Of a stretch of DNA of 64,000 bases, positions 26,314-34,486 are shown in pieces. The position numbers were made by a program, and so were the translations under genes. This DNA comes from Chitinophaga pinensis (lineage in GTDB: Bacteria > Bacteroidota > Bacteroidia > B-17B0 > Aurantibacillaceae), in contig CAMAPT010000006.1 of assembly GCA_945860225.1 (NCBI GenBank), positions 1 to 64,000 on the forward strand. The letters are read 5' to 3'. Within the stretch, counting starts at the first letter, position 1; each line of letters begins with the position of its first letter. Below the pieces are notes generated by a model. It saw nothing but the letters and a program-made list of their open reading frames with translations. It was not told the origin of the DNA and did no database searches.

Positions 26314-27057
26314 TTACCTCATCCACCCTTCAATTTTATAATTCTTTGTAAATATTTTTCGCTCTTGTTCACCATTGTCAGGTTTAAACCAAACTTCAAA
26401 CCTTGCGGCATAGGGCTGTCCCCAATCTCCTTCATAAATTGTAAAATGAGAAGTAGTTGCAAACTTTATAACGCTGTCTTTTGGATTATATATTTTAACT
26501 AAACTTCTTTCGGGCAATCTGTCTGTAGATAAAGCATAATCTTGCGTAATTTCAAAGACTTTCAAATAGATTATCCCACGCTCTATTTTACCGATCCAAA
26601 AGTCATACTCATAAAGTCCTGGTTGAAATGAATTATATAATTGGAAGTCGGTTTTTGTTATTTTTTGGTTTGTAATACTATCCGGTCTATGCTCATCAAA
26701 ATCTAAATCAATAGGGCAATTGATTAGGATATTTGTTGATATTTTTAAATTTTTAGCCCACTCGTCTGGTGTTTCTTGTTCTATAAAAAATATGGCGATT
26801 GAGTAAAAAACAAATGCAACAATTGTTCCTCCAAAAACACCTAAACTTAATAAGCCCTTTAACCAATTTTTCTTTAAAAACAGATAAATTGCAGAAATCA
26901 AAATTATCAAAAGTCCAAGTCCAAAGAATAAGAATGCGATATTTCCAAATGTTCTATTCCCAAATATTTCGGAAAGCCCAAATGTTATACAAGCAAGAAA
27001 CCAAAATAAAATTGGTAGCCACCATTTGTCAAAAAAATATCTAAATAATTTTATCAT
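26314..27057 (-). CDS. Unrecognised membrane protein with soluble C-terminal domain
   Basis: A 247-residue protein with three hydrophobic segments in the first ~115 residues (LPILFWFLACITFGLSEIF, IAFLFFGLGLLIILISAIYLF, GVFGGTIVAFVFYSIAIFF). A ~130-residue beta-rich domain with several Trp follows (YEYDFWIGKIERGIIYLKVFEI, FTIYEGDWGQPYAARFEVWF). I do not recognise the family. It lies in the accessory stretch between mutS2 and the hybrid kinase, directly downstream of the attC-like element (27091-27209) when read on the minus strand. No similar element was found after its 3' end. Confidence 0.7.
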   Translation of the reverse strand: MIKLFRYFFDKWWLPILFWFLACITFGLSEIFGNRTFGNIAFLFFGLGLLIILISAIYLFLKKNWLKGLLSLGVFGGTIVAFVFYSIAIFFIEQETPDEWAKNLKISTNILINCPIDLDFDEHRPDSITNQKITKTDFQLYNSFQPGLYEYDFWIGKIERGIIYLKVFEITQDYALSTDRLPERSLVKIYNPKDSVIKFATTSHFTIYEGDWGQPYAARFEVWFKPDNGEQERKIFTKNYKIEGWMR

Positions 27058-27090
27058 TCAACTTGTCTCACAAAATTTTTTTTCTACCAT

Positions 27091-27209
27091 GGCGCATAAC
27101 ATCTGCCGGGTTCGGGACACAAACTGTCAAACAGCCCTGAACTTGACGCCAAGGAAAAAGCTCCACGTTTACCCGCCATCACATCCGAAGCAAACCCCGT
27201 GTTATAGCC
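27091..27209 (-). repeat. GC-rich imperfect palindrome resembling an integron attC site
   Basis: A GC-rich 119-base element in AT-rich surroundings. Its outer arms, ggcgcataaca and tgttatagcc, are near reverse complements and contain GCATAAC (27094-27100) and GTTATAG (27201-27207), resembling attC core boxes. Inside them ccgggtt...cggg pairs imperfectly with ccgaagcaaacccc. It lies 12 bases after the stop of a truncated gene and 33 bases before the next gene on the minus strand, the position expected of an attC between cassettes. No integrase gene is in the window. It could instead be another Bacteroidota intergenic repeat family. Confidence 0.45.
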
Positions 27210-27221
27210 AATGTCTTCTCA

Positions 27222-27368
27222 TTATTTCTTGTTTAATTTAATTGTTATCGCGTCAAGTGATTTTTTACCATTCCAAATCGATTTACCAGTGCACATACTT
27301 GTAATTTTATTTTTGTCAAAATATATTGAAGTGTTTCCATAAAGACCTATGTTGTCTTTGATAAATTG
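27222..27368 (-). pseudogene. 5'-truncated gene remnant (C-terminal 48 residues)
   Basis: The minus-strand frame reads QFIKDNIGLYGNTSIYFD, KNKITSMCTGKSIWNGKKS and LDAITIKLNKK, then a stop at 27222-27224. The composition is protein-like, with no start codon near its beginning (the only ATG is internal) and an in-frame stop directly upstream at 27369-27371. Its 5' end lies 16 bases after the stop of the next upstream gene, so the front of the gene appears to have been lost by deletion or displacement. I do not recognise the parent family. The remnant ends just before the attC-like element. Confidence 0.5.
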
Positions 27369-27384: not shown

Positions 27385-28221
27385 CTATATTTTTTTATTG
27401 ATTTTTTCTATAATGGTTTTCATCTTTTGGAAACCCCTATTATCCAAATAATTGCGTATCTCTTTTTTCCAAATAAATTGAAATATATATAATCCAAATA
27501 ATATGATTAGTATAACAAAAAGAATGGCGTATTTAGATTCTTTTATATTTAATTGATTATGTTGGCTTAAGGTTAGATAAGAAGTAACGGCTGAACGAAT
27601 TGTCATTACTTGAATAACATTATGTGTATTATACTTTTGTGAAAATGAAAACTCCTTATCAGTTTTAATATAGGCTTGGTAATCCTCCTTTGAAACAGAA
27701 TAAAACACCGAATCGGCTGTGCTAAAATCATTTTCTAAAGAGGTTTGATAATGTAAATAATTTGGATAAGGTAAATCAAATTTAATATTTGGGAATTCCA
27801 ATATTTTAAAAACAACAGACCCACTGCCAGCTTTTGGTCCTGTTGTATATTTAGGAATCTCTTTAAGCGTTCCTCTTACTTCCACAAGGTCGTTTGCTTC
27901 TATTTTGGTTGGATGAAAAGCTTCGTCAATTCCCCAAAATAACAAGGGAAAAAATAGAATTGTAACAATAACAGTCCAAATATATTTTTTAGTTTGGCTG
28001 TTGTTTTTTTTCGAAAGGAATGGGGTTAATCCTTTCTGTGCAAAATATCGGAATTTAAGTAATACTATGAATGCTAATAATCCAAAAATAAAAAACAGTC
28101 CTACGAATATGGCATGACCAATTTGCAAATAACCCTCAGAAAATAAATTTTCAGATAAAAGCCAAGCGACACTCCAAAAAGAAATTACACCAATTAATAT
28201 AATAAGTTTAATTGTTCTCAT
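27385..28221 (-). CDS. Unrecognised membrane protein (278 aa)
   Basis: Three N-terminal hydrophobic segments (LIILIGVISFWSVAWLL, IFVGLFFIFGLLAFIVLLKF, YIWTVIVTILFFPLLFW). A ~130-residue soluble region follows, starting EVRGTLKEIPKYTTGPKAGSG, which recalls extracytoplasmic beta domains of DUF3592-like proteins. A fourth segment (YAILFVILIILFGLYIFQFIW) precedes a basic tail. No confident family. It lies in the accessory block immediately upstream of a truncated gene remnant. A perfect palindrome (28347-28364) and a possible overlapping 41-codon ORF lie in its leader. Confidence 0.7.
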   Translation of the reverse strand: MRTIKLIILIGVISFWSVAWLLSENLFSEGYLQIGHAIFVGLFFIFGLLAFIVLLKFRYFAQKGLTPFLSKKNNSQTKKYIWTVIVTILFFPLLFWGIDEAFHPTKIEANDLVEVRGTLKEIPKYTTGPKAGSGSVVFKILEFPNIKFDLPYPNYLHYQTSLENDFSTADSVFYSVSKEDYQAYIKTDKEFSFSQKYNTHNVIQVMTIRSAVTSYLTLSQHNQLNIKESKYAILFVILIILFGLYIFQFIWKKEIRNYLDNRGFQKMKTIIEKINKKI

Positions 28222-33631: not shown

Positions 33632-34486
33632 ATGATTTTATCCAAAGCCGAAGAAAATAAAAACAGATTGATTTCATTAGGGATTTCCCTTTTAGTCTTC
33701 ATTTTGCTATTATTATTTTTGGTTTATTATATCATTGTTACTCCTAATCCTCCTTTCCCGGAAACAGCAGGTGGCGGCGGGGGAATTGAATTTAATATTG
33801 GTAATTTAATAGAGGGTACGGGTAATGTGGAAAACAATGGTATTGGAGATGCCGTTAAAGTAGTTGAAAGTGCAGAGGTTACACCGCCCACTACTCAAGA
33901 AAACTCAGCTCAAAATTTAGTTACATCAGAACAGGGAGAGGATATTAATCTTAATTCAACAGAAACAGAGCAAACAACGACTAATCAAACTGTGGTGATT
34001 CCTGTAAAACCAAAAGTTAAATCGGCTGCTGAATTATTAGCTGAAAAATTTTCGAAAAATAAGGGTAATAATGGTGGCGGAGATGGAAATAGTGGTCATG
34101 AAGGAAATGATGGTAGACCAGACGGTAAGCCCAACACGAATGGAACCGGCGGTTCAGGTGGCGGAGAAGGAGGAGGTGATGGTATTGGAAAGGGTCCGGG
34201 TAAAAGCCCGGGTAAAGGAAGTTATGGTTTTAATTTAGCAGGCGCATCAATTGTTACTCCACCGCCATTGTCTAAGGATACTAAAGAAGAAGGTAAAGTA
34301 GTAGTAGAAATTACGGTTGACAGAAATGGTAAGGTTATAAAAGCTGATCCCAATGGACGTGGTACAACGACTAGTAGTCCCATTCTGAAAGCTAAAGCCA
34401 GACAAGCCGCATTAGCCACTATATTTAAGGTTTCGGGAGAATTTGAAGAACAAAAAGGTACTATCACAATTATTTTCAGTTTCTAA
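33632..34486 (+). CDS. TonB-like energy transducer
   Basis: A 284-residue protein with a single N-terminal membrane helix (residues ~13-36), an acidic Thr-rich spacer, and a long Gly/Lys/Pro-rich linker at ~140-200 (GGSGGGEGGGDGIGKGPGK). The C-terminal TonB-type domain reads EGKVVVEITVDRNGKVIKADP...AALATIFKVSGE...GTITIIFSF. Its position after exbB and exbD supports a TonB role: transmitting proton-motive energy to outer-membrane receptors. The linker is Gly-rich rather than the Pro-Lys repeats of classical TonB. No TonB-dependent receptor gene is in the window. Confidence 0.85.
   Translation: MILSKAEENKNRLISLGISLLVFILLLLFLVYYIIVTPNPPFPETAGGGGGIEFNIGNLIEGTGNVENNGIGDAVKVVESAEVTPPTTQENSAQNLVTSEQGEDINLNSTETEQTTTNQTVVIPVKPKVKSAAELLAEKFSKNKGNNGGGDGNSGHEGNDGRPDGKPNTNGTGGSGGGEGGGDGIGKGPGKSPGKGSYGFNLAGASIVTPPPLSKDTKEEGKVVVEITVDRNGKVIKADPNGRGTTTSSPILKAKARQAALATIFKVSGEFEEQKGTITIIFSF

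Follow-up and report, generated by a model that had tools for sequence, protein, structure and literature searches.

The window analysed here (bases 1–64000 of contig C6 of a 2.9-Mb genome) contains, between two co-oriented membrane-protein genes, a GC-rich element whose forward strand carries GGCGCATAAC at 27091–27100 and GTTATAGCC at 27201–27209. GC content was 0.525 over 27080–27199 versus 0.28–0.31 in the adjacent 120-base windows, and the element was read in attC orientation from 27209 to 27091, with the coding strand of its neighbours (minus). An earlier sequence-only reading had described a GC-rich element with GCATAAC and GTTATAG ends amid AT-rich flanks, placed behind the stop of a truncated gene and before the next gene; both points were borne out (GC 0.53 versus ~0.29 and ends located; a gene remnant stopping ~10 nt away and the next open reading frame starting at 27057). 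Other GC peaks in the window, at 34112 and 62623, were glycine-rich coding sequence, no tRNA was found in the 64-kb window, and an Rfam search with the element gave no match. The features of the locus, with the basis of each assignment in brackets, are as follows.

27385–28221, minus strand: gene for a 278-aa membrane protein, upstream of the site, without close homologues; a candidate cassette gene at most
About 27219–27368, minus strand: remnant of a 48-codon frame, ending TAA TGA ~10 nt before the site (six-frame reading)
27091–27209, minus strand: element assigned with high confidence as a degenerate attC site (homology to array sites; covariance model match at 27092–27209, 25.8–25.9 bits)
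27201–27209, minus strand: left (R''-type) box GGCTATAAC (sequence and boundary of homology)
27104–27105, minus strand: point at which the 3' arm is ~18 nt shorter than in relatives (CCCGAACGCAAAGCCCG-like; alignment A1)
27092–27100, minus strand: right (R'-type) box GTTATGCGC with the expected G/TT crossover point (sequence and boundary of homology)
26314–27057, minus strand: gene for a 247-aa membrane protein, downstream of the site; a candidate cassette gene at most

The 48-codon remnant probably derives from the 3' end of the gene once carried by this cassette. Homologue searches with the 278-aa protein gave weak partial matches to other membrane proteins, none of them inside a cassette, and the 247-aa protein gave one weak plasmid match. 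The suggestion that the co-oriented membrane-protein genes around the element are themselves cassettes was left unsupported, as no start box fitted the left box of the site and no cassette homologue of 27385–28221 was found. In 12 congeners checked for synteny, the window genes that adjoin mutS2 were never beside mutS2.

BLASTN searches of 395 genomes from the phylum, with the element as query, returned homologues ~75% identical over 100 bp in several families, with E values down to 2.7e-13, and in the alignment of these homologues similarity stopped exactly at the TAACA box and the CGTTA box, the sequence outside being unrelated. Sites of this family were ~136 bp long and stood in tandem arrays of a single orientation, separated by genes, also on contigs C43 and C38 of the source genome; a profile search gave eight sites at locus L092, six at L085 and five at L093, plus others, with one orientation within each locus. 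A covariance model with 22 pairs (R1) was built from 21 array sites, the window copy being left out. In the R1 alignment 91.3% of cells were paired, with many double changes, the covariation score was 0.333 versus 0.126 after shuffling, and pairing fell to 30–44% when partners were slid by 1–3 columns; RNAalifold independently recovered these stems, 10 of its 16 pairs showing compensatory changes. The folded arms of the family are thus backed by covariation. The window element was recovered by the model built without it (E 2.1e-5 in 6 kb) and, with the BLASTN homologues, this match establishes that its sequence is not a product of chance. Fifteen of the 21 array sites had flush 22-nt arms without bulges, most of these carrying two single mismatches at fixed places, and the remaining six had one or two bulged (extrahelical) bases. 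At L093/L124 (G084:C1:115564–137597) four sites carried AAACTTAAGG(C/T)GGTT in place of the TAAC left box, with a normal right box, and possibly form a second attC type. At a locus of a congener (L095, G012:C108) weak R1 matches of 100–194 nt all had one orientation, which suggests that attC sites of other length classes exist and score poorly with R1.

Once an integron cassette is circular, its start box forms the right half of the site at its other end, so the left box of a site is expected to complement the right box of the site before it, and not its own. This signature was present in the family: the left box of a site was the exact reverse complement of the right box of the preceding site in 32 of 36 neighbouring pairs, and the mean match over the variable bases was 5.75 of 6 with the preceding site versus 2.61 of 6 with the site's own right box. 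Chaining was exact in 8 of 9 cases in Flavobacterium enshiense and in all three pairs on contig C43 of the source genome, and it held in other named genomes too; such chained boxes are the mark of circular cassettes.

With eight candidates scored per genome, R1 sites (E ≤ 1e-4) were found in 175 of 395 genomes, belonging to 98 of the 171 genera of Bacteroidota sampled. Site numbers were at least 61 in F. enshiense and at least 55 in F. luminosum. Among 44 genomes with named loci, sites were present in 10 of 12 Bacteroidota and in none of 32 others, the latter being a small control in which each genome carries a relative of the integrase described below.

Tyrosine recombinases matching the TIGR02249 profile were present in all 15 genomes examined, in none of them above the cut-off of 265 bits. 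Seven integrases were scored with several profiles and gave 190–230 bits with TIGR02249, 196–226 with NF040815 (an archaeal XerA-type model, cut-off 220) and 156–196 with XerC/XerD. The arrays in two genomes (G402 and G084) lay directly behind such an integrase gene. When named genomes were scanned with the integrase alignment alone (80 loci), R1 sites were found at 19 of 44 Bacteroidota integrase loci versus 0 of 35 others. Of 45 sites at named Bacteroidota loci, 42 were downstream of the integrase gene and on its strand. Among the 24 Bacteroidota integrase loci whose downstream sequence was long enough, 10 had no R1 site there; some of these relatives may have another function or work with attC sites of other types. 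The start of the first cassette, predicted from the first attC of the array, was at most ~300 bp from the integrase stop codon in 15 of 23 loci, and 74–120 bp from it in 10. The sequence before this start was common to the loci (TATA, ~20 nt, TATANACNAG, then the G/TT point), so that an attI site stands beside the integrase gene at 15 of 23 loci and also in the source genome (contigs C33 and C14).

The IntI-specific insertion was missing from all Bacteroidota integrases listed, in which the spacing from KGxKxR to LRHS was 59–65 residues. The best PDB sequence match of the L132 integrase was VchIntIA (2a3v), in an alignment that skips chain residues 208–251. For the F. enshiense integrase, an AlphaFold model with pLDDT 82.7 superposed on 2a3v with Z 20.2 over 254 residues and on the archaeal Xer structure 4a8e with Z 23.9, and the C-terminal SP(L/F)D motif of the integrases aligned with SPL of VchIntIA. 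Many of the Bacteroidota integrases carried N-terminal repeats; those at L122, L128 and L133 had two to three, with an RW..W.IPY motif and a weak match to the Pfam family HARP. At L132:9139–9966 (G416:C2) a 275-aa integrase type without N-terminal repeats was found, oriented divergently from its nearest sites instead of preceding them in a shared direction.

A search of the source genome for further copies and for an integron integrase, as proposed with the sequence-only reading, was positive on both counts. BLASTN with the window element gave no second copy there, because the genome's own copies have diverged; the covariance model detected at least a dozen further sites. Searches with short box patterns gave matches no commoner than reversed-pattern controls, yet pointed to the C43 site. 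Contig C33 carried an intact 467-aa IntI-like integrase with attI. A second integrase copy, truncated and with an in-frame stop, was found at C14:60299–60586 (L246:5299–5586), 91% identical to the C33 copy over ~300 bp and followed by attI and then several sites on the same strand, the run extending over 24 kb. The last 38 bases of the two attI sequences were identical up to CGCGTTAG, after which one reads TGGCAAG and the other CTGCAAT, as expected of two different first cassettes. The closest named relative of the source genome's integrase was that of Aquiflexum (57% over 454 aa), whose locus (L185) has downstream sites too; the placement of the source genome in Bacteroidota is judged from such nearest named relatives. 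Genes between the sites on C43 (L094) and C38 (L245) encoded a methyltransferase, a sigma-70-like factor, a TPR protein and a short-chain dehydrogenase, and several others had no Pfam match. Lone sites were found on C9, on C15 and at C6:96122–96262, the last a weak one (24.7 bits) on the same contig as the window copy and outside the window.

The window copy itself has decayed. Its palindrome, as put forward in the sequence-only reading, was upheld as a GC-rich element with box ends and proved weak as a fold: the single-strand fold was no better than that of dinucleotide shuffles (z −0.45; repeat runs −0.76 and −0.94), versus z values of −1.8 to −5.6 for the intact family members tested. The palindrome is weak because ~18 nt of the 3' arm are gone. 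Its R1 score of 25.8 bits was low, with E 0.0105 over the whole source genome. A covariance-model scan of 6 kb gave no neighbouring family site, and the cassette-start box that would match its left box, expected as GTTATAGCC, was absent upstream, so that the chained-box signature of the family was not found here. A near-box GTTAAGCCC (minus strand, ~28290) was weighed as a possible cassette start but discarded as too weak. By its arm loss, shuffle-level fold and lack of a partner box, the window copy is a relic. With the arm loss and the truncated gene, the site is probably no longer recombined efficiently. It may be either a lone inserted cassette or the end of a lost array.

We conclude with high confidence that the window holds a relic attC, derived from a family of chromosomal integrons with a wide distribution in Bacteroidota. 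Judged from the anatomy, an IntI-like tyrosine recombinase would bind the ~136-nt attC as a folded single strand and, in double-stranded form, an attI ~100 bp downstream of its own gene; it would cut at G/TT and so insert or excise circular gene cassettes, and repeated insertion at attI would yield an array read in the direction of the integrase. The window copy would then stem from one cassette, or from the tail of a lost array, stranded away from the integron; its cassette gene would have been truncated and its site would have lost ~18 nt of one arm.

A different account of the window copy would make it an intact and usable lone cassette, inserted at a secondary site in the manner of attG-type insertion and carrying the 278-aa gene as cargo. 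The lone sites on C9, C15 and at C6:96122 and the cassette-like co-orientation of the 278-aa gene and the site fit this account, and insertion of classical integron cassettes at attG sites is known, as cited in PMC12901181 from Loot et al. 2024. It is nevertheless unlikely, since the expected start GTTATAGCC is absent upstream, a separate gene remnant and not the 278-aa gene abuts the site, and the loss of ~18 nt from the 3' arm has left a fold no better than shuffles. An ordinary transcription terminator or structured RNA would also place a GC-rich intergenic inverted repeat after a stop codon; this can hardly be the explanation, given the missing Rfam match and the shuffle-level fold of the window copy, and it would leave the cassette boxes of the relatives, their exact box boundaries and the array order unexplained.

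For the family as a whole, a dispersed palindromic repeat or transposon end (REP-like), moved by a transposase and lying between genes by chance, would account for palindromic, intergenic and scattered sequences with many copies in some genomes, and for a window copy that stands alone. Arrays of one orientation and chained boxes in 32 of 36 pairs are, however, unexpected of such repeats, and the sites follow one particular kind of integrase gene and share its strand, with an attI junction present; this origin is strongly disfavoured and regarded as highly improbable. The cassette arrays might instead be real but recombined by XerC/XerD or by an undetected canonical IntI, the linked integrase being incidental. 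The linked integrases do fit NF040815 (196–226 bits) about as well as TIGR02249 (190–230), and their part in recombination is read from anatomy. Against this stand the attI junctions directly behind the linked integrase gene in many genomes, the directional placement of sites relative to the integrase (42 of 45) and the finding of canonical IntI above cut-off in 0 of 15 genomes, and such a division of labour seems quite unlikely.

Compared with classical integrons (Vibrio VchIntIA, class 1), the family of the relic shares cassette arrays of one orientation, left and right boxes with a G/TT point, a cassette-start box complemented in the site that ends the same cassette, an attI beside the integrase, and structured, covarying sites. 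It differs in that the IntI-specific insertion is missing from the Bacteroidota integrases, bulged extrahelical bases are missing from 15 of 21 sites, and the integrase is mostly co-directional with the array, with attI at its 3' end. The integrases thus fall outside canonical IntI (TIGR02249 cut-off, insertion) and most of the sites outside canonical attC (extrahelical stem bases). The earlier interpretation as an integron attC was therefore right in kind, with arrays, integrase and attI found, in the source genome too, although the window copy is degenerate and alone; the standard integron model it drew on holds for the anatomy of the cassette system, but not for the integrase, which has no insertion, nor for most sites, which have no extrahelical bases. 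With Xer recombinases the Bacteroidota integrases share a catalytic part without the insertion (4a8e Z 23.9, 2a3v Z 20.2), and stems that lack extrahelical bases are reminiscent of the CTX phage site, an element that uses Xer (PMC4792948); unlike Xer, these integrases fit the integron profile (190–230 bits) better than XerC/XerD (156–196), carry an SP(L/F)D motif at the C terminus and occur in linkage with cassette arrays and attI.

Integrons are considered rare in Bacteroidota, and with IntegronFinder 2.0 Salinibacter ruber was the sole Bacteroidetes genome named with a complete integron (PMC9024848); a taxon-wide study of attC sites had no Bacteroidota model among its models (PMC8352920). 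The integron of S. ruber M1 belongs to the same phylum and was an exception found with standard models (PMC9024848), whereas the present site family occurs in 98 of 171 genera. Among the open PMC texts searched, reports of Bacteroidota integrons were almost absent; an earlier description is possible outside open PMC texts. The IntI-specific insertion has been called essential for integron function, yet it is conserved in only part of the subgroup (PMC8138268); it is linked to the recognition of extrahelical bases and has not been identified in other tyrosine recombinases (PMC4792948). The absence of both insertion and, in most sites, extrahelical bases therefore makes a coherent variant, and HattCI and IntegronFinder might well fail on such sites.

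It is on balance probable that Bacteroidota hold a separate, phylum-wide integron lineage in which the insertion was never acquired (or was lost) and attC can do without extrahelical bases. Such a lineage would be a living intermediate that links Xer recombination with classical integrons and selects strands by a rule of its own. Strand choice might rest on the conserved mismatches, on the uneven spacer or on the repeats at the N terminus of the integrase. If phylum-wide insertion-free integrons are confirmed, estimates of how common cassette exchange is would be revised, a reason would be suggested why searches that depend on the insertion miss Bacteroidota integrons, and the evolution of single-strand attC recombination from Xer-like enzymes could be tested directly. 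With R1 as a search model, a large pool of cassette genes that await characterisation becomes accessible, and the Bacteroidota system may reveal both the origin of integrons and the cause of their oversight in this phylum.
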